From Chloroflexota bacterium (GTDB taxonomy: Bacteria; Chloroflexota; Limnocylindria; Limnocylindrales; CSP1-4): a DNA stretch of 10,208 nucleotides. The position numbers and the translations under genes were made by a program. The notes under the pieces were generated by a model that saw only the letters and a list, made by a program, of their open reading frames with translations, made no database searches and had not been told where the DNA came from. The DNA is taken from assembly GCA_021789355.1 (NCBI GenBank), contig JAJYJR010000166.1, positions 1-10,208 of the forward strand, given 5' to 3'. Positions within the stretch are counted from its first letter, which is position 1, and every line of letters begins with the position of its first letter. Shown here piece by piece: positions 1 through 10,208 of the stretch.

Positions 1-17
1 GGTATCTTCTTTCCCAC
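1..17 (-). CDS. 5' end of an unidentified gene running off the left edge
   Basis: On the - strand an excellent Shine-Dalgarno, AAGGAGG (30-24), is followed after 6 nt by GTG (17-15). The frame stays open to the window edge, reading fMet-Gly-Lys-Lys-Ile. Nothing can be said about the product from five residues. The start lies 82 bp beyond the restored stop of the HEPN gene on the same strand. It could therefore be a fifth member of that cluster or the first gene of the next unit, depending on whether the hairpin at 61-77 terminates transcription. Support is the spacing and quality of the ribosome site only. Confidence 0.45.
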
Positions 18-23
18 GGTGGT

Positions 24-30
24 CCTCCTT
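24..30 (-). promoter_or_regulatory. Strong ribosome binding site for the edge gene
   Basis: AAGGAGG on the - strand, 6 nt before GTG at 17-15. It is the best Shine-Dalgarno match in the left part of the window and is the reason for calling a gene start there. Confidence 0.5.
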
Positions 31-60
31 CTCTGCGGGCGTCTTGCAGGACACCCCGAA

Positions 61-77
61 CCTTGCCAGAGGCAAGG
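61..77 (-). terminator. Short hairpin after the HEPN gene
   Basis: CCTTGCC and GGCAAGG form a perfect 7-bp stem with a 3-nt loop, 22 nt past the restored HEPN stop. Read on the - strand it is followed by TTCGG, so the U-tract is very poor. It may be a weak or factor-assisted terminator, or just an intercistronic hairpin before the gene starting at 17. Confidence 0.35.
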
Positions 78-99
78 CCTCAGATGGCGGACCACCGCC

Positions 100-863
100 C
101 TACTTCAACAAATCGGGGGACAACCTCGCCTCGATCCGCTTCTGCTCGTTTTCCGAGACCGGGTTGTTGTGCGCCAAGGTGTCCTGGCGGGTTCAAGCTC
201 CTCGAGCCACTGGTTGATCCAATGCTGCTTGTGGATGATCGGCTCGAAGTCCGCCCAGTTCTTCTCGATTATGTTGCGGAGGTCGCTGAAGTCTGAGTAG
301 TAGATCTCGTGGGCGCCGCGCTTCCCGTGCCACGGCACCATGTCCTCCTTGTCCTTTCGGCCCTGGACAAGCTTGCGTACCCCGCTGGGCGCCTGGGTGA
401 GCCACCAGTCCCTGCCGTGTTTCGCGGTCAGCACCCGGTTGATCACGCTTCGGATCGAGTTCTCCAAGAGGTACATCTTCGGGTAGAGCTGAGCCATCCG
501 GGCTGCGTCCGTAGCGACCGATGTCGGAAGCAGGAGGTCGACGGCCGGGATTTCGGCGGACATGCGAACGGCACGCGAAGCAGGTGCTGCCGGCTTCGGC
601 GCTGCCGCCCGTCTTGGAGCTGTGGTGACGACGGGAGCTCCGTGGCTCCGCGGGACCATCCCTCGGACGCGATCGACAGTCTCGCGGTCCAGGTACTTCG
701 TGAGATCGATGCCCTTCTGGTGGGCGAGGACGTACGCGGCGTCCTCCGTCCTCATCGGCCCGTGCTGCTTCTTCACCTCGCCGACGAGCTGCGACAGCCG
801 TTGCGGCGTGACGTTCCCAAGCTTCTTCAGGAGCTCCGACCGGACCTCCGGGTTGGTTGCCAT
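100..863 (-). CDS. Swt1-type HEPN-domain protein, frameshifted at its RNase motif
   Basis: As written, the frame from ATG 863 gives 252 aa ending at 105, but its last ~25 residues are Arg/Thr/Ser-rich nonsense. Adding one G in the GG at 184-183 (codon 227) restores a C-terminus starting RDTLAHNNPVSENEQKRIEA and stopping at TAG 102-100, for 254 aa. That contains R227-x4-H232, the R-x4-6-H motif of HEPN ribonucleases, in the RNxxAHNN-like setting I associate with Swt1-type HEPN domains. Layout: N-terminal helical domain 1-70 (GPMRTEDAAYVLAHQKGIDL at 35-54), Pro/Ala-rich linker ~72-104, and HEPN core ~122-254 including YPKMYLLENSIRSVI. Family HEPN proteins are often RNA-cleaving toxins or defence effectors. 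It lies 7 bp after the last winged-helix gene, so it is probably co-transcribed. The indel may be a sequencing error or a real inactivation. Confidence 0.75.
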
Positions 864-870
864 GCTCCCG

Positions 871-1236
871 TCAGCCCTTCGCGGGCTGCGCGTCGTCGTC
901 GCGCGTGCGGTCCAGGTACCAGCGGACGATCGCGTCCTCGTTGCGGGCCACGATCACGCTCCGACCCGTTGCCCCTGGGGCGACCTCGACGAGCCCGAGG
1001 TCCAGTAGCTCCTTGACGAACAGCTGCGCTGCCCGGTCGGTGACGCCCGCCGCCTTCGCGAGTTCGGGGCTCCCGGCACGGCCGTCGATCGAGTCGAACA
1101 TCGACATCCGGGCGGATGTCCTCAGGAGCTCAGCCCGGAGCTTCGCCCGCAACTTCCGCTCCTCCGCTCCGGTCAGGAGCGCCAGCCGCCTGTCAATCGA
1201 GCGAAGGAGCCGGGTGGTCTGGTCGTTGTCGGTCAT
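871..1236 (-). CDS. Small winged-helix protein C (third of three paralogues)
   Basis: 121 aa from ATG 1236. The frame is open further upstream, but that extension is an Arg/Pro-rich shadow of the preceding gene; GTG at 1245 is a possible alternative start. Neither start has a good Shine-Dalgarno, so translation is probably coupled to the gene ending 13 nt upstream. Residues ~8-40 look like charged amphipathic helices (LLRSIDRRLALLTGAEERKL). Residues ~45-85 look like a helix-turn-helix (SIDGRAGSPELAKAAGVTDR, then an FVKELLDLGLVEV recognition helix and strand). A wing-like segment follows, and the C-terminus is acidic. A DNA-binding regulator or sensor is likely, with the specific role unknown. 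It resembles the proteins at 1595-1930 and 1250-1594 around the shared DG turn. The HEPN gene starts 7 bp downstream. Confidence 0.7.
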   Translation of the reverse strand: MTDNDQTTRLLRSIDRRLALLTGAEERKLRAKLRAELLRTSARMSMFDSIDGRAGSPELAKAAGVTDRAAQLFVKELLDLGLVEVAPGATGRSVIVARNEDAIVRWYLDRTRDDDAQPAKG

Positions 1237-1249
1237 CGTCGTCACACGC

Positions 1250-1594
1250 CTACGCGGCGGACTTCTTGGCTCGCACGGCCTTCGGCGGCGGGGTCTCGAT
1301 CCCGAGCTCAGCCAGGGTGAACGACGCCCTTGGGGACGCAGCGTCAGGGTCGACAAGCACGGCCGGCATCCATACCTTCAGCCACTTGGCGATGTCGTTG
1401 TGGTTCGCGCCGGTGGCCTTCTCGATCGCGATCACGCCGGTCCCGCCGTCCATCGCCGCATACGCACGCCGTTTCGCGTCCGTGTCGAGGAGCACCTCCG
1501 CACTCGACCGCAGCGCCGGCAGCGCTGCCAGTCGTGTCCAAGGCGCGATCTCCCTGAGGATGCGGATCTCCTCCACCCGGTCCTCGCCCGCCAT
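1250..1594 (-). CDS. Small winged-helix protein B (second of three paralogues)
   Basis: 114 aa. ATG (1594-1592) directly abuts the TGA of the upstream gene (1597-1595), and GGAGG (1607-1603) sits 8 nt upstream inside that gene's last codons, so the start is well supported. Helical N-terminus (~5-35), then KRRAYAAMDGGTGVIAIEKA and an IAKWLKVWMPAVLVDPD segment laid out like the helix-turn-helix of its two neighbours. The C-terminal 35 residues end in a Lys/Arg/Pro-rich tail (PPPKAVRAKKSA) that could bind nucleic acid. No enzyme motif is visible. It is the most diverged of the three: two Trp residues replace the usual recognition-helix pattern and the DG turn is kept. It is probably a DNA-binding or protein-contact component of the same operon. 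Confidence 0.7.
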   Translation of the reverse strand: MAGEDRVEEIRILREIAPWTRLAALPALRSSAEVLLDTDAKRRAYAAMDGGTGVIAIEKATGANHNDIAKWLKVWMPAVLVDPDAASPRASFTLAELGIETPPPKAVRAKKSAA

Positions 1595-1930
1595 TCAATC
1601 CACCTCCAGTGTCCGGGTCGGGTTCGACCCCTCTGTCACGGCTCCCAGCTCGCGGAGCTGCCGGAAGAACTTGCTGGTGGCGCCTTCGTCGAGCGCCGCC
1701 TCCGTGGAGATCTCCCTCTGCGTTCGGCTGCCGTCCGCCAGCTTCCATGCCTTGCGCCTGGTCACTGTGGACAGCAGGTCCCGCACCTGTTGGCGCTTCG
1801 CCTCCAGTCGTTCCGCTTGCCGCTGCTCGTAGCCTTGACGGTAGTGGTCGGCGATCGGGATGAGGAGATCGCGGATCTCACGAAGCAACTCTGTGTTCTC
1901 GTCCGGCAACTCGACAGTCCTCAAAGCCAA
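1595..1930 (-). CDS. Small winged-helix protein A (first gene of the HEPN cluster)
   Basis: Up to 111 aa. The frame is closed by a TGA 21 nt upstream of the TTG at 1930 and contains no ATG near its start. Candidate starts are TTG at 1930, 1924 or 1909; only the 1909 TTG has a purine-rich site (TGAGGA, 8 nt upstream). Residues ~10-55 are strongly helical and charged (LLREIRDLLIPIADHYRQGY, then Arg/Glu-rich), suggesting a coiled coil. Residues ~65-105 form a helix-turn-helix with wing: LADGSRTQREISTEAAL, then SKFFRQLRELGAVTEG. This is the clearest winged helix of the three small proteins. As first gene behind the promoter at 1982-1953 it could be the autoregulator of the cluster, but that is inference from position. 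Confidence 0.7.
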   Translation of the reverse strand: MALRTVELPDENTELLREIRDLLIPIADHYRQGYEQRQAERLEAKRQQVRDLLSTVTRRKAWKLADGSRTQREISTEAALDEGATSKFFRQLRELGAVTEGSNPTRTLEVD

Positions 1931-1952
1931 CTTGGCGAAGAAGTTGGGTCAC

Positions 1953-1982
1953 ATTCTACGCAGAGCCTCTTCGCTGTTGCAA
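1953..1982 (-). promoter_or_regulatory. Candidate promoter of the winged-helix/HEPN cluster
   Basis: On the - strand, TTGCAA (1982-1977) and TAGAAT (1958-1953) are separated by 18 bp, matching 4/6 and 5/6 of the sigma-70 type consensus. The predicted transcript start is about 15 nt before the TTG at 1930. This lies in the only gap between the recombinase and the cluster, so the cluster can be expressed independently of the recombinase. The TAGAAT hexamer resembles the -10 boxes before the housekeeping genes to the right. Confidence 0.45.
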
Positions 1983-2059
1983 GTCAAACTTGCCGCGTTC
2001 GGACATCTGTTCTAGCCCGACACCCACGTGCGAGTCTGCCTGCACGAGGTCGGTCGCGC

Positions 2060-3004
2060 CTACAGCCGGTCGCCTGGGCTGAGCCGCTTGTAGGCCTCGC
2101 GGGCGCGTTCGTCGGCCGCAGACGCGCCGTAGCGGGCGAGCATCTGGCGGCTTTTCCAGCCGGCAAGGCGCATCAGGTCGCCCTCGGTACCACCGGAGGC
2201 GAGCCACTGGTGGGCGTACGTGTGCCGGAACTGGTGCGGGTGAATGTCGGGCAAGCCCGCCTCGCGCCCGCGCCGCTTGATCGCAGGCTCGACGCCGGTC
2301 TCGGTTAGCCGGCCGCGCTTGCCGAGCCATAGCCAAGGCTCCGACGCGTCAGGCCGCTTCGATCGAGCGCGCAGGTAGCGATCGATGGCCTGGCCGGTCT
2401 TGTGGCCGAACGGACACGCCCGCGGCCGGCGGCCCTTGCCGAGGACGACGGCGGTCTCCTGGTCGAGGTCGACGTCCTCCAGTTTCAGCCCCGCGAGCTC
2501 GCCGCGGCGCATCCCGGTATCGAGGAAGAGCCGGATCATCGCGTTGTCGCGGCGGTCCTCGAAGCCGGTCGCGGCGCAGGCCTCCAGCAGCTTTCGCAGG
2601 TCGTCCTCGCGGAGGACGGGTGGGGGAGTCTCGGGCACGAGCGGCGGGCGCATCGTCGCCATCGGGCTCGCCGCGATCTCGCCCTCGGCGGCCAGCCACT
2701 TGAAGAACTGCTGGAGCGAGCGGAAGCGCTGCGAGAGGGTGGCCGGGCGCATCCCGGCGTCGGAGCGCTCGACGAGGAAGGCCTCGACATCCTCGCGCCG
2801 GACGTCGGCCACTCGGCGCGGGCGATGGCGGCGCGGCTCGGCAAGGAAGGCGTCGAACTGCTCGACCGCCTTGGCGTACGTGACGATCGTTGACGGCGCT
2901 TTGTTCTCGGCCCGGAGGTGGCGGGTGAAGGCGGCGAGGTTGGCGGGGACGTCGGGTTCGGCTATAGAATCGGGGCGAGCCCGACCGCGGGCGCTGGGAG
3001 CCAT
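2060..3004 (-). CDS. Tyrosine recombinase / phage-type integrase (XerC/D-like)
   Basis: 314 aa, the usual length for a compact tyrosine recombinase. It catalyses site-specific strand exchange through a covalent 3'-phosphotyrosine. The N-terminal SAM-like core-binding domain spans ~18-110 ([20 protein letters not shown] and [20 protein letters not shown]). The catalytic domain spans ~125-310 with all expected residues: R166 in [16 protein letters not shown]190 in VVLGKGRR, H257 and R260 in HPHQFRHT, W283 in LAGWKSRQ (the His/Trp position) and Y292 in ARYG. ATG at 3004 is the only obvious start but has no clear Shine-Dalgarno. It sits 105 bp from the 5' end of the tRNA at 3110 and is transcribed away from it. 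That position points to the integrase of an inserted element rather than the housekeeping Xer, but a chromosomal XerD-like protein cannot be excluded. Confidence 0.9.
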
Positions 3005-3109
3005 AACTATCGGCCGCCGTGCTTGGAACCATGGCGACAGCTACAGGCTCGAAATCGACTGCGGTCAAGCTCCGCGCCAGTTGTGAACTGTGACTGAGCG
3101 TGAATCGGC

Positions 3110-3184
3110 GGCGGAGTAGCTCAGTGGTAGAGCAGGGGACTCATAAGCCCTTGGTCACAGGTTCAAATCCTGTCTCCGCTACCA
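3110..3184 (+). tRNA. tRNA with CAU anticodon, probably elongator tRNA-Met
   Basis: A complete cloverleaf. The acceptor stem GGCGGAG pairs with CTCCGCT (G1-U72 wobble), discriminator A73, encoded CCA (3182-3184). The D-arm is GCTC...GAGC. The T-arm is ACAGG-TTCAAAT-CCTGT. The anticodon loop CTCATAA carries CAU. In the anticodon stem (GGGGA/GCCCT) the loop-closing pair is A31-G39, a mismatch; the outermost is G-U. CAU is shared by initiator Met, elongator Met and lysidine-modified Ile2. The lack of three G-C pairs at the loop end argues against the initiator, and overall shape favours elongator Met over Ile2. The - strand of the T-arm encodes a false peptide often mis-annotated as protein. Confidence 0.93.
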
Positions 3185-3198
3185 ACTTCCGAACGTGA

Positions 3199-3229
3199 AG
3201 CGGCCCCTCGGGGATCCCGAGGGGCCGCT
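3199..3229 (+). terminator. 14-bp perfect hairpin after the tRNA gene
   Basis: AGCGGCCCCTCGGG (3199-3212) and its exact complement (3216-3229) flank a GAT loop, starting 15 nt after the tRNA CCA. It is followed by CATTGCCCC, so there is no U-run. It is probably the tRNA terminator, since GC-rich stems with poor U-tracts also follow ftsH in this window. Being near-symmetric, it could act on both strands. Confidence 0.65.
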
Positions 3230-3352
3230 CATTGCCCCTCCGTGGACGGCCGGGCCGGTCTGTGCCGCAGCCGCCATCGTGGGCAGACAACCGCCAGTGC
3301 CGGGCCCGCTGGCCGGCCAGTTGACTGGACGTTGTCGCGCCCGATGGTGACC

Positions 3353-3384
3353 AGCCTCCTCGGATCGACCTCCGCGAGGAGGCT
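3353..3384. repeat. Inverted repeat, 10-bp stem
   Basis: AGCCTCCTCG (3353-3362) pairs perfectly with CGAGGAGGCT (3375-3384) around a 12-nt loop. There is no U-tract on either strand. It may be part of a structured RNA or an operator. Confidence 0.45.
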
Positions 3385-3659
3385 CGGCGCCGCTCCGGAT
3401 CGACGAGGGCAGCCTGTTCGGTCACCGGCGGCACGCCGCGTGGGAGGGCCCGAACGCCCCGCGTGCGGCCTACCCGAACGGGTGGTGGAGCTCGGTCCAT
3501 TCGGCGACCCTGCGGGGGGCGGGTCGGCCCTCGCCGGCGGCGGTGTCCGCATGCGATCGTCCCGTCAACGGTCGAGGGCGGTGTTCGGGCAGACATTCGC
3601 TCCCGATCGGAGTGTCGACCGCGGTACCCTCCCCCCACCCCCGCGGTTTGCCCTCATCC

Positions 3660-3695
3660 GAGGAGCCGGCGCCCGCCAGTGGCAGCCGGCTCCTC
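3660..3695. repeat. Inverted repeat, 11-bp stem
   Basis: GAGGAGCCGGC (3660-3670) and GCCGGCTCCTC (3685-3695) are exact complements around a 14-nt loop. It lies 275 bp upstream of the ftsH start. No U-run follows, so a classical terminator is not supported. Confidence 0.5.
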
Positions 3696-3914
3696 TGACG
3701 TCCGCCGCCGCTCGGTAACGTAACTCGCGACGGCCAGGAGGCGGGCGCGCGGCCCCGCCCCGGTTCCCCGCCGGGTCGATGCGGGGCAATCCGTTCCGCC
3801 GGTCCCTGGCGTACCGACCGGGGACGGGGGATCCCGGCCGGCGGGCGCGGTCCCGTGCCGCGAGTCCCGGACCGCCAACCCGACGGTCCAATCGGGCTCT
3901 CAGAATAGGGACGC

Positions 3915-3920
3915 TATACT
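3915..3920 (+). promoter_or_regulatory. Candidate -10 box of ftsH
   Basis: TATACT matches 5/6 of the sigma-70 -10 consensus, 50 nt before the TTG start. The position 17 bp upstream has no good -35 hexamer. The distance to the gene is like those of the other -10-like boxes in this window. Confidence 0.4.
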
Positions 3921-3956
3921 CGTGGCACGGTTGGTCCACGACCCGCCGCCTGACCC

Positions 3957-3961
3957 GGAGG
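3957..3961 (+). promoter_or_regulatory. Ribosome binding site fixing the ftsH TTG start
   Basis: GGAGG, 9 nt before TTG at 3971. It settles the start: the frame is open back to ATG 3779, but the 64 residues before the TTG are Arg/Pro-rich non-protein sequence, and the TTG places the first transmembrane helix near the N-terminus as in all FtsH. Confidence 0.75.
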
Positions 3962-3970
3962 CTCTCCTTC

Positions 3971-5893
3971 TTGAACGCAAAGTTCCTGCGCAACGGGATC
4001 GTGATGCTGGTGCTCGTGGTGGGCACGGTCGCGTTGCTCTACACCTGGCTGATGCAGCCCACGACCACCAATTCCGAGCCGTACTCGACGTTCCTGAACG
4101 ATGTCACGGCCGGCAAAGTGGCCAAAGTCGAGCAGCAGAACACGACCCTCACGGTCACGACCAACGCGTCGCCGCCCGAGACCTACACGAGCGAGGTCGC
4201 GAGCCCGCTCGTCAACGTCTACGACGACATCAAGGCCGCGGCCCAGAAGGGTGGCGTCGACTACACCAAGATCGTCTACCAGCCGGTCGCGGCCGCGGAC
4301 ACGAGCTGGATCGGCCTGCTGGCGTCCGTCCTCTTACCGGTCCTCCTGATCGGCGCCTTCATCTTCTTCATGATGCGCCAGGCCCAGGGGACCAACAACC
4401 AGGCTCTGAGCTTCGGCAAGAGCCGGGCCCGCATGTTCCTGGGCAACAAGACCGTCGTGACGTTCCAGGACGTGGCCGGCGTCGACGAGGCGAAGATGGA
4501 GCTCCAGGAGGTCGTGGAGTTCCTGAAGTACCCGGAGAAGTTCAACACGCTCGGCGCGCGCATCCCGCGCGGCGTGCTCCTCGTCGGCCCTCCGGGAACG
4601 GGCAAGACGCTGCTCGCCCGGGCCGTGGCCGGCGAGGCGGGCGTGCCCTTCTTCAGCATCAGTGGCTCCGAGTTCGTCGAGATGTTCGTGGGCGTCGGCG
4701 CGAGCCGTGTCCGCGACCTGTTCGACCAGGCCAAGCGCAACTCCCCCTGCATCGTCTTCGTCGACGAGATCGACGCGGTCGGCCGGCAGCGCGGCGCGGG
4801 CCTCGGCGGCTCGCACGACGAGCGCGAGCAGACCCTGAACCAGATCCTGGTCGAGATGGACGGCTTCGACACGAACACCAACGTGATCGTCGTCGCCGCC
4901 ACCAACCGCCCGGACGTCCTGGACCCGGCCCTGCTGCGGCCCGGCCGCTTCGACCGCCAGGTGATCCTCGATCGGCCCGACATGAAGGGCCGGGTCGCGA
5001 TCCTGAAAGTCCACACCAAGGGCAAGCCGCTCGACAAGACGATCGACGTCGAGAACCTGGCCCGCCAGTCGCCGGGCTTCAGCGGCGCCGACATCGCCAA
5101 TCTCGTCAACGAGGCCGCGATCCTCGCCGCCCGGCGCAACCGCAAGGTGATCGGGATGAGCGAGTTCGAGGAGGCGCTGGAGCGGATCGTCGCCGGCCCC
5201 GAGCGCAAGAGCCGGGTGATCAGCGATCCCGAGAAGCGGATCATCGCCATCCACGAGGGCGGCCACGCCGTCGTGCAGCGGGTCCTGCCGAAGTGCGACC
5301 CGGTCAACAAGGTGACGATCATCAGCCGGGGCATGGCTCTCGGCTACACCATGGCCCTGCCGGTCGAGGACCGCTACCTGCAGTCGAAGTCCGAGTTCGA
5401 GGACAAGATCGCGGGGCTCCTCGGCGGCAACGCGGCCGAGAAGCTGATCTTCGGCGACACGACGACCGGCGCGTCGAACGACATCGAGAAGGCAACCGAT
5501 CTCGCGAGGCGCATGGTCACCGAGTTCGGGATGAGCGACAAGCTCGGGCCGCTCGCCTTCGGCAAGCGCGACGAGATGATCTTCCTGGGGCGCGAGATCG
5601 GCGAGCAGCGCAACTACTCGGACGAAGTCGCCAAGCAGATCGACGAGGAAGTCCGGGCGATCATCGACCACGCCTACACCCGGGCGATGGAGACCCTGAC
5701 CGAGAACAAGCACCGGCTGATGGCCCTCGCCGACAAGCTGATCGCCGAGGAGACGGTCGACTCCGTGGAGTTCGAGAAGCTCTTCGCCGATCTGCCGCCC
5801 AAGGAGAACCAGCACGGGGCGCCGCCCCGGGTCGTGGCCCCGGATGCCGCGACGCCGGGCGCCGCTCCGACGCCGACGCCGAGCCCGGCCTGA
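3971..5893 (+). CDS. ftsH: ATP-dependent zinc metalloprotease FtsH
   Basis: 640 aa from TTG 3971, normal family length. It is a membrane-anchored hexameric AAA+ protease that unfolds and degrades membrane and short-lived cytosolic proteins. Order: TM1 ~9-28, extracytoplasmic domain ~30-110, TM2 ~113-135. AAA+ module: Walker A GPPGTGKT 206-213, pore motif around MFVG 238-241, Walker B with D265-E266, second region of homology ~306-328 including RPGRFDR. The zinc protease domain has H428-E429-G-G-H432 as the HExxH motif and D504 in [11 protein letters not shown] as likely third ligand. Usual FtsH has HEAGH; here Ala is Gly. The C-terminal ~30 residues are a disordered Pro/Thr/Ala tail ([14 protein letters not shown]). 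It is monocistronic: its own promoter-like box upstream and a hairpin just after the stop. Confidence 0.97.
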
Positions 5894-5920
5894 ACCGGGC
5901 GCCGCTCCCGCACCGCCGAT

Positions 5921-5949
5921 GAAGGGCGGGCCCGCCGGGCCCGCCCTTC
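5921..5949 (+). terminator. GC-rich hairpin ending the ftsH transcript
   Basis: GAAGGGCGGGCCC (5921-5933) is exactly complementary to 5937-5949 with a GCC loop, starting 27 nt after the ftsH stop. The following bases are TCTCGCTGCC, so the U-tract is poor. Its place between ftsH and a gene with its own promoter-like box supports a terminator. Confidence 0.7.
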
Positions 5950-6004
5950 TCGCTGCCTTCGCTGCCGCTCGGCGCCGCGACCAGCCGCGCGGCCCGCGGA
6001 CGGC

Positions 6005-6010
6005 TAGAAT
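6005..6010 (+). promoter_or_regulatory. Candidate -10 box of the M20 peptidase gene
   Basis: TAGAAT, 35 nt before the ATG at 6046. It is the same hexamer as before the winged-helix/HEPN cluster. No convincing -35 hexamer is visible 16-18 bp upstream. Confidence 0.4.
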
Positions 6011-6045
6011 CAGGTCATCCCGACCGACTCGTGCGGAGGCTACCC

Positions 6046-7473
6046 ATGACCGAAGCGACCGGGGAGCGCCTGCCCTCCCTCGATGCAGCCCTCGAGGCCT
6101 ACCTGGTGGGTAACCGCCGGCAGCGCCTGGACTTCTACGTGGACTTCCTGCGGATCCCCAGCATCTCCACGCTGCCGGAGCATGCCGCCGACTGCCGGAC
6201 CGCGGCTACCTTCCTGGCCGACCGGCTGCGCGCCGTCGGGCTGGAGCACGTCGAGATCGCCGAGACCGGCGGCCATCCCATCGTCTACGCCGACTGGCTG
6301 CACGCCGAGGGGGCGCCGACCGTCGTGGCTTACGGCCACTACGACGTCCAGCCGGTCGATCCGGTAGAGGAGTGGCAGGCACCGCCGTTCGAGCCGGTGG
6401 TGCGCGACGGACGGATTCTGGCCCGCGGCGCCAGCGACGACAAGAGCAACGTCACCATCCTCGTCCAGGCGATCGAGGCGGTCCTGGCCACCCGTGGCCG
6501 GCTGCCGGTCAACCTCCGCCTGGTCGTGGAGGGCGAGGAAGAGGCCGCCTCGGAGCACCTGGAGCCCTGGCTGATCGCCAACCGACAGCGACTCGGCGGC
6601 GACTTGGCCCTGATCAGCGATTCCGGCTTCTTCGACGGCAACCTGCCGGCCATCACCGTCGGGCTGCGCGGGCTGATGTATGCCCAGATCGACGTGGTCG
6701 GACCGTTCCAGGACCTCCATTCGGGCAGCCACGGCGGCGCGGTCGAGAACCCGGCCAACGCCCTGGCAAGGATCATCGCCGGGCTCAAGGACGACCACGG
6801 CCGGGTCCTGGTGCCGGGCTTCTACGACGAGGTCGTGCCGCTGAGCCCGGCCGATCGCGCCGCCTTCGCCGCGCTGCCGTTCGACGAGGAGGCCTACCGG
6901 GCCGCGGTGGGCGTGCCGGCGCTGGTCGGCGAGGCAGGCTTCAGCACGCTGGAGCGGCGCGGGGCGCGGCCCACCCTCGACGTCAACGGGATCTGGGGCG
7001 GGTTCCAGGGGGAGGGGAGCAAGACGATCATCCCCGGCCGGGCCCACGCCAAGGTGAGCTGCCGGCTCGTCGCGAACCAGGACCCGGAGCGCATCTTCGA
7101 GCGCTTCCGGGACTACGTCGTCCAGATCGCGCCGTCCGGCGTCCGCGTCGAAGTCACCAGCCTGGGCAGCGGCCGGCCGAGCCTCACCTCGATCGACCAT
7201 CCGGCGACCCGGGCGGCCGCCCGCGCGCTCGAGGCGACGTTCGGGGTCGGCCCCGTCTACTCCCGGGAGGGCGGCTCCATCCCCTTCGTGGCGACCTTCG
7301 AGACCGTCCTGGGTCTGCCGGTGACGCTGCTCGGCTTCACGCCCCCCAACGACAACGCCCACGCCCCCAACGAGTGGATGGACCTCGCCAACTACGAGAA
7401 GGGGATCCGGGCCATGGCCCGCTACTGGGACGAGCTCGCCGCCGCACCGGAGCTGAACGGCCCGCGCCCCTGA
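6046..7473 (+). CDS. M20 family metallodipeptidase (CNDP-like)
   Basis: 475 aa from ATG 6046, chosen over the in-frame GTG at 6031 because GGAGG (6035-6039) lies 6 nt before the ATG. It is a cytosolic di-zinc hydrolase that cleaves dipeptides or other short N-acyl/peptidyl substrates. Ligands in the order seen in CNDP-type dipeptidases: H98 and D100 in YGHYDVQP, bridging D131 in ARGASDDKSN, catalytic E165 with metal-binding E166 in VEGEEEAAS, D192 in ISDSGFF, H439 in NDNAHAPNEW. The lid/dimerisation domain spans ~205-370 and contains LHSGSHGGAV, the usual insertion. Length and motif spacing are normal for the family. There is no signal peptide. The exact substrate (carnosine-like, Xaa-His or general dipeptides) cannot be read from sequence. 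It is apparently transcribed alone. Confidence 0.95.
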   Translation: MTEATGERLPSLDAALEAYLVGNRRQRLDFYVDFLRIPSISTLPEHAADCRTAATFLADRLRAVGLEHVEIAETGGHPIVYADWLHAEGAPTVVAYGHYDVQPVDPVEEWQAPPFEPVVRDGRILARGASDDKSNVTILVQAIEAVLATRGRLPVNLRLVVEGEEEAASEHLEPWLIANRQRLGGDLALISDSGFFDGNLPAITVGLRGLMYAQIDVVGPFQDLHSGSHGGAVENPANALARIIAGLKDDHGRVLVPGFYDEVVPLSPADRAAFAALPFDEEAYRAAVGVPALVGEAGFSTLERRGARPTLDVNGIWGGFQGEGSKTIIPGRAHAKVSCRLVANQDPERIFERFRDYVVQIAPSGVRVEVTSLGSGRPSLTSIDHPATRAAARALEATFGVGPVYSREGGSIPFVATFETVLGLPVTLLGFTPPNDNAHAPNEWMDLANYEKGIRAMARYWDELAAAPELNGPRP

Positions 7474-7540
7474 CCGGTTCCGCGCCGCGGGTGGTCGGAA
7501 CGGATCGGTGTGGGTGGGTGATTCGGGGGGAATCCGATGC

Positions 7541-7546
7541 TAGGAT
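7541..7546 (+). promoter_or_regulatory. Candidate -10 box of the DnaB-like/ppa/thpR operon
   Basis: TAGGAT, 36 nt before the GTG at 7583. No clear -35 is visible. The strong GGGGAGGAA at 7565-7573, 9 nt before GTG 7583, fixes that start and rules out an ATG at 7537 in another frame. A weak GTTCCG/CGGAAC stem at 7477-7501 just after the M20 stop may help separate the two transcripts. Confidence 0.35.
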
Positions 7547-7582
7547 GGCCCCACGTCACAACCCGGGGAGGAATCAGACCGC

Positions 7583-8665
7583 GTGAGCACCGAAGCGCCG
7601 GACAACGTCACCCCCACCGCGAAAACCACCTGGCGCCTGGACACCGACAACGGGAGCATGGCCCCGCGTTCGGCGCTCGACGTCCTGGTCGACCTCAACG
7701 ACCGCGTCACGAGCGGCCGGCTGGCCGAGTACCAGCCGATGCCGCTCGGGTTCACCCCGCTCGACAAGACGATCGGCAACGGCCTGCGGCCCGGCGAGCT
7801 GCTCCTGATCGGCGGCGCCCAGGGAACCGGCAAGACGACCATGGCCCTCCAGATGGCCCGCAACGTCGCCTCCGGTGGCCAGGCCAACGTCCTCTACCTC
7901 TGCTTCGAGCACGAGGAGCACTACCTGCTGAACCGGCTGGTGGCCATGGAATCGGCCCTCGCCCACCTGCCTCACAAGACCGGGGCGATCAAGATCCAGG
8001 ACGTCCGCAGGGAGATCCTGGGCTCCTGGATGGCCGAGGGCCAGGGCGGCCCGCAGCTGGCCAGCAACCCGCGCCTGCGGCCCAGCCTCGATCGGATCGC
8101 GCGCTACGGGCAGAACCTCTTCCTGCTGCGGGGCTCGCAGACGGCCAGCACGATCGAGAACATCCGGCGGCTCGTCCAGCAGCACCGGCTGCTCTCCGGC
8201 GAGCGCCAGCTGATGGTGGTCGTCGACTACCTGCAGAAGGTGCCGATGTATCCCGAGCCGAACACCGAGGCGGAGAAGGTCACCTTCGTCGTCAACGGCC
8301 TCAAGGACATCGCGCTCTCGGAGCAGGTGCCGGTCATCACGATCGTGGCCGCGGACAAGGAAGGGCTCAAGGCCTCGCGCCTGCGGAACCACCACCTCCG
8401 CGGCTCGTCGGCCATCAACTATGAGGCCGACATCATCCTGATCATCAACGAGAAGTACCACATCGTCGCCAAGGTCAACATCGAGTTCAACCCGTACCAG
8501 GCCCAGCGCTTCCGGGACTGGGTGGTCCTCTCGGTCGAGAAGAACCGCGGGGGCCAGGACAATGTCGACCTCGAGTTCGAGAAGCACTTCGAGTTCAGCT
8601 GCTTCGACCCCAACGGTCGGACGGTCCAGGAGAAGCTGATCGAGGAGCGCCTCTACAACGACTGA
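7583..8665 (+). CDS. Single-domain DnaB-type RecA-fold ATPase
   Basis: 360 aa from GTG 7583 behind a strong Shine-Dalgarno. It corresponds to the C-terminal helicase/ATPase domain of replicative DnaB without its N-terminal primase-binding domain; residues 1-45 are a short non-conserved leader. Features: PLGFTPLDKTIGNGLRPGEL (54-73) matching the DnaB entry, Walker A GGAQGTGKTT (77-86), YLCFEHEEHYLLNRL in the place of the DnaB 'SLEM' segment, Walker B LMVVVDYLQKV with D215, HLRGSSAINYEADIILIINE (271-290) like the DnaB sensor region, and VEKNRGGQDNVDLEF (318-332) like its KNR finger. It probably binds ATP and nucleic acid. Whether it is a helicase, loader or regulatory ATPase is unknown, and it is unlikely to be the main replicative helicase. 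It is first in an operon with ppa and a 2H-phosphoesterase. Confidence 0.85.
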   Translation: MSTEAPDNVTPTAKTTWRLDTDNGSMAPRSALDVLVDLNDRVTSGRLAEYQPMPLGFTPLDKTIGNGLRPGELLLIGGAQGTGKTTMALQMARNVASGGQANVLYLCFEHEEHYLLNRLVAMESALAHLPHKTGAIKIQDVRREILGSWMAEGQGGPQLASNPRLRPSLDRIARYGQNLFLLRGSQTASTIENIRRLVQQHRLLSGERQLMVVVDYLQKVPMYPEPNTEAEKVTFVVNGLKDIALSEQVPVITIVAADKEGLKASRLRNHHLRGSSAINYEADIILIINEKYHIVAKVNIEFNPYQAQRFRDWVVLSVEKNRGGQDNVDLEFEKHFEFSCFDPNGRTVQEKLIEERLYND

Positions 8666-8674
8666 CGAGGCAGC

Positions 8675-9193
8675 ATGCCGGAACGACCGGGTGACCGCTT
8701 CCCGGAGATCGTCGAGATCGTCGTCGAGATCCCCCGCGGCAGCCGCAACAAGTACGAGTACGACGAGGCGGCCGGGGTCTTCCGCCTCGACCGAGTCCTC
8801 TCGTCGGCCGTCTTCTACAACTTCGACTACGGCTTCATCGAGGGGACGCGCGCCGACGACGGGGACCACACCGACGCCCTGCTGATCATCGACGAGCCCA
8901 CATTCCCCGGCTGCCACGTCTGGGCCCGCCCGGTCGGCGGCCTGGAGATGCGCGACGAGAAGGGCTTCGACTTCAAGGCCCTCTGCGTGGCTGTCGGCGA
9001 CCCGCTCTACCGGCACGTGCGGGATCTGAGCCAGGTTTCGCCCCACCAGCGGCTGGAGATCCAGAACTTCTTCGACACCTACAAGCTCCTCGAGAAGAAG
9101 GAGACCGAGGTGGTCGGCTGGCGCGAGTTCGACAGGGCGCGCGAGATCCTGCTGAACGACCGGGAACGCTTCGAGCGCGAGCGGCCGGCGTGA
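8675..9193 (+). CDS. ppa: Family I inorganic pyrophosphatase
   Basis: 172 aa, typical bacterial length. Hydrolyses pyrophosphate to phosphate in the cytosol with Mg2+, pulling biosynthetic reactions forward. By alignment with the E. coli enzyme: K26 and E28 in NKYEYD, R40 in RLDR, Y48 and Y52 in FYNFDYGF, metal-binding D62, D64 and D67 in DDGDHTDA, D94 and D99 with K101 in MRDEKGFDFKAL. All acidic ligands are present, but the family signature D-x-D-P-x-D is D-G-D-H-T-D here, with His for Pro and Thr for the usual hydrophobic residue. The C-terminus has the FFDTYKLLEKKE and VVGW segments of the family. The start lies 9 bp after the upstream stop behind GAGG, 4 nt from the ATG. Confidence 0.93.
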   Translation: MPERPGDRFPEIVEIVVEIPRGSRNKYEYDEAAGVFRLDRVLSSAVFYNFDYGFIEGTRADDGDHTDALLIIDEPTFPGCHVWARPVGGLEMRDEKGFDFKALCVAVGDPLYRHVRDLSQVSPHQRLEIQNFFDTYKLLEKKETEVVGWREFDRAREILLNDRERFERERPA

Positions 9194-9903
9194 ACGGCAC
9201 CCGCGGCGAGGGTCGCGGGTGGGTCGCCGCGGGGCACCTCCGGGCGCCGGACGGGGCGGCCGCGGCCGGCCACCCGGCGTCGGAGCGGCGCCGCTGGCAG
9301 CCGGACCGCCGGCCGGGTCGGCGGCTGTTCGTGGCCGTTCCCCTCGCGGACGAGCCCCGGCGGGCCGTGGAGCTCCTGGTGGAGCGGGTCCGGGCCGGAG
9401 AGCCGGTGCCGCCTGCCCGGGGCCGGCCGGACGTGCGCTGGGTCCGCCTGGACGGGCTCCACGTGACGCTCCGTTTCCTGGGGCCCACGCCGGAGGAGCA
9501 GCTGTCGGCGGTCGGGGCGGCCGTGGCCGCCGCTGCCGCGACCGCGGCCCCGTTCGAGATCCGCATCCACGGTGGCGGCGCGTTTCCCGGCGCCTCCCGA
9601 CCGCGGGCGGTCTGGCTGGGCGTGACGGCCGGTGAGCCCGAGCTGGCGGCCCTGGCCGCCAACCTGGACGCCGCACTGGAGCCCCTCGGCTGGCCGCCCG
9701 ACGAGCGGCCGTTCCGGGCCCACCTGACGCTCGCCCGGAGCGACGGGGTGGCCCGCGCCCGCGACGTCGTGGCGCGTCTGGAGGAGCTGGCCGCGGAGCT
9801 CGACGTGGCCTGGCGCGCGGAGCGCCTGGTGCTCTTCGAGAGCCACACCGGTCGCGGAGCCGCCGTCTACGAGGCGCTGCGCGAGGAGCGGTTCGGCCGC
9901 TGA
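9190..9903 (+). CDS. thpR: 2H-phosphoesterase, RNA 2',3'-cyclic phosphodiesterase family
   Basis: 237 aa from GTG 9190, which overlaps the ppa stop (GTGA), so translation is probably coupled. The family hydrolyses 2',3'-cyclic phosphates at RNA ends, and E. coli ThpR also has RNA-ligase history. Both HxT(x) catalytic motifs are present: H91-V-T-L in LHVTLRFLG and H178-L-T-L in FRAHLTLAR. The core begins at RRLFVAVPLADEPRRAVELL (44-63), the family's usual N-terminus. The first ~43 residues are Gly/Arg/Ala/Pro-rich and not family-like. They may be a genuine disordered extension or indicate an internal start, though no better start codon with a ribosome site is visible. The long Ala stretch (109-120) is ordinary for this GC content. 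Other 2H enzymes (LigT-like) cannot be separated by sequence alone. Confidence 0.88.
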   Translation: MNGTRGEGRGWVAAGHLRAPDGAAAAGHPASERRRWQPDRRPGRRLFVAVPLADEPRRAVELLVERVRAGEPVPPARGRPDVRWVRLDGLHVTLRFLGPTPEEQLSAVGAAVAAAAATAAPFEIRIHGGGAFPGASRPRAVWLGVTAGEPELAALAANLDAALEPLGWPPDERPFRAHLTLARSDGVARARDVVARLEELAAELDVAWRAERLVLFESHTGRGAAVYEALREERFGR

Positions 9904-9938
9904 TCCGGGGTCGGAGGCCGGACGTCCGGCGGGTCGCG

Positions 9939-9950
9939 GATGGTACCATC
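9939..9950. promoter_or_regulatory. 12-bp palindrome before the last gene
   Basis: GATGGTACCATC is a perfect palindrome in the 97-bp gap. It contains TACCAT (9944-9949), at the distance expected of a -10 box from GTG 10001. It could be an operator overlapping a promoter, or a chance restriction-site-like palindrome. Confidence 0.3.
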
Positions 9951-10000
9951 GGCCCCGATCCGCGATGGGCGCGTCTGCCCGAGCCGCTAGAGGAGGCGGA

Positions 10001-10204
10001 GTGTCGACGATCCAGCGAGGCCGGCTCGTGATCGCCCTCGGCCTGCTGAACCTCGCCCTGGCCGCGGTGGCCCTCGCGGTCAGCCTCTCGTTCCCCACCG
10101 TGTCGCCCGGCCCGGCTCCGGCCGGGGCCAGCGCCACCCCGAAGACCGCGCTGCGGAGCGCTTCACCGGTGCCGGCCACGCCCCCGGCGTCCGGCACGCC
10201 GTAG
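10001..10204 (+). CDS. Small single-pass membrane protein, function unknown
   Basis: 67 aa from GTG 10001, preceded by AGGAGG (9991-9996) 4 nt upstream; an ATG at 9965 in the same frame has no ribosome site and is less likely. Residues 1-8 are short and basic (MSTIQRGR), 9-29 are a strong hydrophobic helix (LVIALGLLNLALAAVALAVS). The remaining ~38 residues are a Pro/Ala/Ser/Thr-rich tail with no Cys, probably outside the membrane (basic N-terminus inside). There is no lipobox and no Ala-x-Ala followed by a mature domain, so it is an anchor rather than a clear secretory signal. The family is unknown to me. It is complete, ending 4 nt before the window edge, so a downstream partner would be out of view. 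Confidence 0.65.
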   Translation: MSTIQRGRLVIALGLLNLALAAVALAVSLSFPTVSPGPAPAGASATPKTALRSASPVPATPPASGTP

Positions 10205-10208
10205 ATCG

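Follow-up and report, generated by a model that had tools for sequence, protein, structure and literature searches.

Stacks of small helix-turn-helix-like genes ahead of Swt1-type HEPN genes in a Chloroflexota contig and in distant loci

The Chloroflexota contig JAJYJR010000166.1 (assembly GCA_021789355.1), analysed here over positions 1 to 10,208 (the window), carries a gene for a Swt1-type HEPN protein, a putative RNase effector, which is preceded on the same strand by three small genes termed S1, S2 and S3. Uncultured bacteria of distant lineages show the same layout: in all six of the other loci whose HEPN protein has the same two-domain build, two or three small helix-turn-helix (HTH)-like genes immediately precede the HEPN gene in the same orientation. 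Judged from sequence, this recurrence suggests a module of a defence or toxin-antitoxin-like kind that is as yet undescribed. A sequence-only reading of the window had proposed such a module, with three winged-helix proteins sensing or restraining the HEPN protein; "undescribed" now has to be narrowed to the partner set, which is different here, because the effector is already the PADLOC candidate PDC-M34B.

Operon layout and recurrence

Transcription of the minus strand runs in the order integrase, S1, S2, S3, HEPN gene, and the four closely packed genes were recovered as the sequence-only reading had placed them, with gaps of 0 bp (S1/S2), 13 bp (S2/S3) and 7 bp (S3/HEPN). S1 may start at TTG 1909 instead of TTG 1930, giving a protein of 104 amino acids (aa), and a database copy (P0092) of 104 aa begins at that point. 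The genes of the stack and its effector are:

105..863, minus strand: HEPN gene, Swt1-type, putative RNase effector, built of an N-terminal four-helix domain, a linker and the HEPN domain (Pfam, PADLOC, homologue alignment, three-frame reading of the 3' end, model of P0002)
871..1236, minus strand: S3, small DG-type winged-helix-like protein of 121 aa (open reading frame (ORF), family alignment, profile matches to the S1 and S2 families)
1250..1594, minus strand: S2, small DG-type protein of 114 aa (ORF, family alignment, profile match to the S3 family)
1595..1930, minus strand: S1, small protein of 111 aa with a long N-terminal helix and an ArsR-like winged helix

Distant loci were sought with the HEPN protein alone as the query. 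A scan of genome contigs with the HEPN alignment gave four loci, and searches of overlapping genome samples at E<=1e-15 matched 7/400, 1/63, 4/299, 1/82, 4/298 and 5/298 genomes, amounting to 15 distinct genomes; where whole phyla or large classes were searched, scoring covered the top 6-8 candidates of each genome, and misses are possible. A search at E<=0.001 matched 6/41 genomes, only G001 strongly. The HEPN model was matched from its start, and hence with the N-terminal domain included, in six of the 15 genomes (G001, G002, G003, G269, G897 and G978), and these are the six that all carry the stack. A seventh stack lies ahead of a shorter HEPN gene. The loci, with gaps in bp, are:

L001 (G001): three small genes; gaps -4, -4 and 3
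L002 (G002): two small genes; gaps -8 and -23
L003 (G003): two small genes; gaps 21 and 11
L028 (G269): two small genes; gaps -26 and -35
L030 (G897): two small genes; gaps 3 and 42
L031 (G978): two small genes; gaps 18 and 2
L029 (G144): four small genes ahead of the shorter HEPN gene, whose protein has no N-terminal domain; gaps -8, 6, -4 and 4

Every stack locus has at least two small genes. The HEPN proteins of the six two-domain loci are about a quarter to two fifths identical and come from at least two phylum groups, and the count of upstream neighbours, which the sequence-only reading had put forward as a check, bears out a conserved module among the two-domain proteins.

Close metagenomic relatives were compared through linkage, scored by an identical size of the longest contig together with a shared source, with shifted lengths as the control, among 90 HEPN, 45 S1 and 118 of 218 S2/S3 proteins. 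HEPN proteins were linked five times with S1, nine times with S2 and ten times with S3, and S2 was linked with S3 sixteen times, against control means of 0.3, 0.075, 0.375 and 0.25, respectively, and a largest control value of 2. All four families occurred together on two contig sizes, and HEPN was linked with at least one small family on fourteen. The distances co-vary weakly and add little.

The small proteins and the HEPN effector

The paralogy of the three small proteins holds at the level of family profiles, S1 against S3 and S2 against S3 each matching at about 95% and S1 against S2 directly at 40%. The shared DG opening of the HTH, another feature noticed from the window alone, proved to be conserved inside each family alignment: D66/G67 are invariant across 43 rows for S1, M48-D49-G50 across 28 rows for S2 (mean column identity 77%), and I50-D51 across 30 rows for S3, in which G52 reaches at least 90% and an L-x-SIDRRLA helix is also invariant. 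Structure prediction covered S1 and one HEPN relative with an intact frame (P0002), each singly. A winged-helix fold for S1 is supported by its model, in which a 43-residue N-terminal helix is followed by an ArsR-like winged helix; residues 30-111 share the fold of ArsR-family repressors such as HlyU, NolR and CzrA, from which the predicted S1 structure differs by the long helix. Sequence matches to S1 at Pfam or PDB thresholds were not found, S2 matched no Pfam family, and the HTH domains of S1 (HTH_5, 17.2 bits against a cut-off of 22) and S3 (TrmB, 12.2 against 25.6) stayed below the Pfam cut-offs. The HTH reading of the trio therefore depends on the predicted structure of S1 together with the profile matches between the families.

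Outside the window, alignment alone places both small genes of L030 and one of the two in L028 in the DG type, at 16-24% identity to S3. The other stack loci have a shorter type of small protein (69-99 aa), whose HTH reading is based on sub-threshold Pfam matches and for which profile comparison detected no relationship to the DG type. L028 combines one DG-type protein with one short protein that has no Pfam match at all. As to how common the small genes are apart from HEPN, a search for the short type matched 3/251 genomes with nine matches, all nine of them the profile's own rows, so that none of the remaining genomes sampled reached E<=1e-6, and a search for the DG type, run without a positive control, matched 0/201 genomes. 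In L001 a further small ORF of winged-helix-like character precedes the stack in the opposite orientation (4370-4738, minus strand), with sub-threshold Pfam matches only and an N-terminal helix that is similar by eye.

The assignment of the effector as a Swt1-type HEPN protein was confirmed by Pfam (HEPN_Swt1, PF18731, 32.8 bits against a cut-off of 27.5) and by PADLOC (PDC-M34B, 1.2e-34), a family that HEPN relatives match as well. A homologue search gathered 91 proteins including the window copy, nearly all of them metagenomic. Two relatives (P0041 and P0241) have names that say Actinomycetota. The catalytic R-x4-H motif is present in 88 of the 91, in 86 by pattern and in two by eye (P0054 and P0065, in which a C after the H caused the pattern to miss it); it is missing from P0066, P0083 and the window copy. 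The sequence-only reading had the gene ending in an R-x4-H HEPN domain once one base is restored. Taking the frame as read, with no base restored, the HEPN domain is there, but the motif is broken: the alignment shows the frame leaving the family directly after the motif arginine, another frame gives some 18 further family-like residues before diverging, and none of the frames supplies the last 20 or so residues that intact copies have. The break may mark a true pseudogene or an error of sequencing or assembly; because the 3' tail is divergent, the sequence speaks for real decay, and the broken frame means that the window's own copy is probably inactive. Intact relatives exist.

A strong hairpin is located just downstream of the window HEPN gene (1-130, minus strand; -56.8 kcal/mol, z -2.75, a value equalled by none of 200 shuffles) and includes a 16-nt inverted repeat at 17-32/82-97. 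Behind the lost 3' end of the gene, it might represent a terminator or else an inserted element.

Proposed mechanism and rival explanations

The mechanism proposed here, to which an even chance is given, is that of a compact effector-plus-sensor module in which a HEPN RNase is gated by a heteromeric HTH array and defends the cell by abortive infection. The last gene would encode an RNase of the Abi2/Swt1 kind, and the two to four genes upstream would encode different proteins, each with a short helix at the N-terminus and a (winged) HTH at the C-terminus. The small proteins would assemble with one another through the helix, forming an array that reads DNA and holds the HEPN protein, perhaps via the basic helical domain at its N-terminus. 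Disturbance of this array by DNA from phages or other foreign sources would lead to release or triggering of the HEPN protein, and the freed RNase would arrest growth. Assembly of several proteins is favoured over a single repressor because each stack locus has at least two small genes, the paralogues are distinct, and the type of small protein switches while the stack stays. It is possible, although we would not call it probable, that the module is a modular immune system, in which two to four non-identical coiled-helix HTH proteins build a heteromeric array that reads DNA and gates the Swt1-HEPN RNase in such a way that unrelated HTH types are exchangeable between lineages while the stack and the two-domain effector are kept. 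If the stack does sense DNA, it would represent a defence design in which recognition is divided among several small exchangeable proteins and not vested in one large sensor, the Swt1-type HEPN candidate PDC-M34 would gain a second, unrelated partner set, and the off/on control of HEPN RNases would become directly testable with four small genes.

Among more distant Swt1-HEPN loci, seven of the eight inspected without the two-domain build (E<=1e-15) have no stack, L029 being the exception. The sequence-only reading had regarded HEPN homologues mostly without the small genes as a refuting case, and the outcome divides by protein build, in that the two-domain loci all have them and most of the more distant ones do not. 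The locus-context counts leave aside G816, L010-L013 and L026, the frames of L010-L013 and L026 being 665 to 983 aa long. Among the stackless loci, L032, L033 and L034 have an upstream protein of about 210-230 aa, which Pfam assigns to DUF5343 in L032 and L033, the L034 assignment being by eye, and which PADLOC PDC-M34A matches in L033 (5.7e-55). In G004 a SIR2_2 protein (L004 4885-6603) is encoded ahead of a Swt1-type HEPN gene of the short kind, at a distance of 27 bp, and SIR2_2 is a possible second partner type. Other arrangements without a stack were found in G341 and in G080 and G276, whose loci are identical.

An ordinary operon of the type II toxin-antitoxin kind would dispense with the sensing of foreign DNA: the winged-helix proteins would be autorepressors, with one of them doubling as the partner that binds the HEPN toxin, and the extra copies would be redundant or serve other promoters. 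The order of regulator before toxin in tight or overlapping genes, the likeness of the S1 model to ArsR-family repressors, and the classical toxin-antitoxin genes neighbouring L001 and L002 all agree with this account. Nevertheless, one autorepressor would suffice, yet every stack locus has two to four distinct paralogues, and strong conservation marks helix and HTH alike in the families of S2 and S3; moreover, an upstream inverted repeat is unremarkable in seven of eight loci (the window at 0.12 of shuffles) and stands out only in L030 (0.003). We consider this account rather unlikely, while giving it serious weight. That local regulators lie beside the HEPN gene by chance appears very improbable. 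The other loci number only six, and common descent of one protein family could carry its neighbours along; against this, the layout recurs in six of six loci despite the divergence of their HEPN proteins and across phylum groups, and the type of small gene has been exchanged between loci.

Comparison with known systems bears on two further explanations. PMC12373285 reports a non-coding RNA (ncRNA) as the antitoxin of AbiF, and in an arrangement of this type III-like kind a structured RNA would hold the HEPN protein, leaving the HTH proteins to control transcription only. The closest structural match is AbiF bound to its ncRNA (8vz6), an AbiF-like HEPN fold being a tentative reading, and the strong hairpin lies 3' of the HEPN gene. 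However, this hairpin is known from the window alone, Rfam scans of the window and the seven loci gave tRNA only (Rfam may not include the AbiF RNA), and the genes upstream of HEPN, with at most 42 bp between them, are too packed for an RNA gene; the place upstream is taken by protein-coding small genes, which distinguishes the stack from Abi2/AbiD/AbiF systems. The RNA-held alternative is considered quite improbable. The PADLOC candidate PDC-M34 pairs a DUF5343 protein (PDC-M34A) with a Swt1-type HEPN protein (PDC-M34B), in L032 and L033 (and by eye L034) as a tight two-gene operon. Since the HEPN protein here is PDC-M34B, the window could be a narrow PDC-M34 system whose DUF5343 gene was missed or has degraded. 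This is quite improbable: PDC-M34A matched neither S1, S2, S3 and the integrase in the window, where the available sequence stops at position 1, nor the small proteins of L001, L002, L028 and L030, and profiles of three DUF5343 proteins matched the DG type, the short type and the HEPN N-terminal domain at 3% at most. The effector is shared but the partner differs, with two to four small HTH-like proteins replacing DUF5343, and the stack HEPN protein carries an extra N-terminal helical domain (in six of the seven stack loci besides the window) that is missing from the three DUF5343-linked HEPN proteins. As far as seen, PDC-M34 is itself only a computed candidate.

For the effector-plus-sensor mechanism, a precedent by analogy for several winged HTH (wHTH) domains working with a Swt1-type HEPN domain is provided by the giant MTES_1575-type proteins. 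These are described in PMC3710099 as combining a Swt1/Abi2-HEPN domain with an SF-I helicase, a Vsr nuclease and two wHTH domains, the latter being proposed to recognise invading DNA. The same HEPN family is thus joined there with several wHTH domains, as it is here, but in a single polypeptide with helicase and nuclease, whereas the stack consists of separate small proteins and has neither enzyme. In the literature searched, which lay largely outside subscription papers and preprints, no title or abstract opening described a stack-plus-HEPN architecture, and the terms "PDC-M34" and "Swt1-like HEPN" were absent.

Two side observations concern the stackless loci. The ORF lists of L016 and L017 (G080 and G276) are identical over 3.5 kb, and the records may be near-duplicates or reflect a recent shared transfer. 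In L018 (952-1887) HEPN is fused to an N-terminal part similar, by eye, to the 106-aa ORF that precedes HEPN as a gene of its own in L016/L017, possibly another partner type.

The integrase and the genomic neighbourhood

Two further features lie next to the stack:

2060..3004, minus strand: tyrosine recombinase, XerC/D-like integrase, upstream of the stack and a candidate module member only (Pfam Phage_integrase 1.7e-29)
3110..3184, plus strand: tRNA-Met beside the integrase (ARAGORN; Rfam tRNA, 69.9 bits)

The integrase falls below the NCBIfam cut-offs for XerC and XerD. It had been taken to fit a mobile cargo, a reading that is at most tentative. The gene lies on the 5' side of the tRNA-Met, the unusual side for elements that integrate at tRNA genes, and positions 1-3300 of the window contain no att-like flanking repeat, although an element, if there is one, may extend past the window and end there. 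A viral or phage origin was also considered and rejected, as viral-contig scans with HEPN, the S1 family and the S3 family and the phage scans returned no relative. PADLOC matches of the HEPN and small proteins to PD-T4-5 and CARF families were weak and left unused.

In L028, L029 and L030, the last on a contig of 5,336 bases, the ORF lists contain no defence or toxin-antitoxin neighbour. In L003 the module sits between a DUF1156 adenine methyltransferase (PADLOC HmaB, 3.8e-38) and an SNF2 helicase (BrxHI, 2e-101), and in L031 genes for a D12 methyltransferase and a HerA ATPase come after the module. HicBA follows L002, and three Phd antitoxins and a PIN toxin are found near L001. Plasmid scans returned one record, the conjugative cyanobacterial plasmid AP018315.1, with a standalone Swt1-type HEPN gene (L046 3686-4435). 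Its N-terminus is a different one, an HTH gene is lacking immediately ahead of it, and a single gene separates it from ParB and ParA-like genes. The remainder of the window is chromosomal, with genes for FtsH, an M20 peptidase, a DnaB-like ATPase, a pyrophosphatase and a LigT-like phosphoesterase on the plus strand past the tRNA-Met; a search with one chromosomal protein, run without a control, matched nothing among 41 genomes from the class of G001. The G+C content differs mildly, being 65-66% across 1-2000 and 66-77% in the other 1-kb steps.
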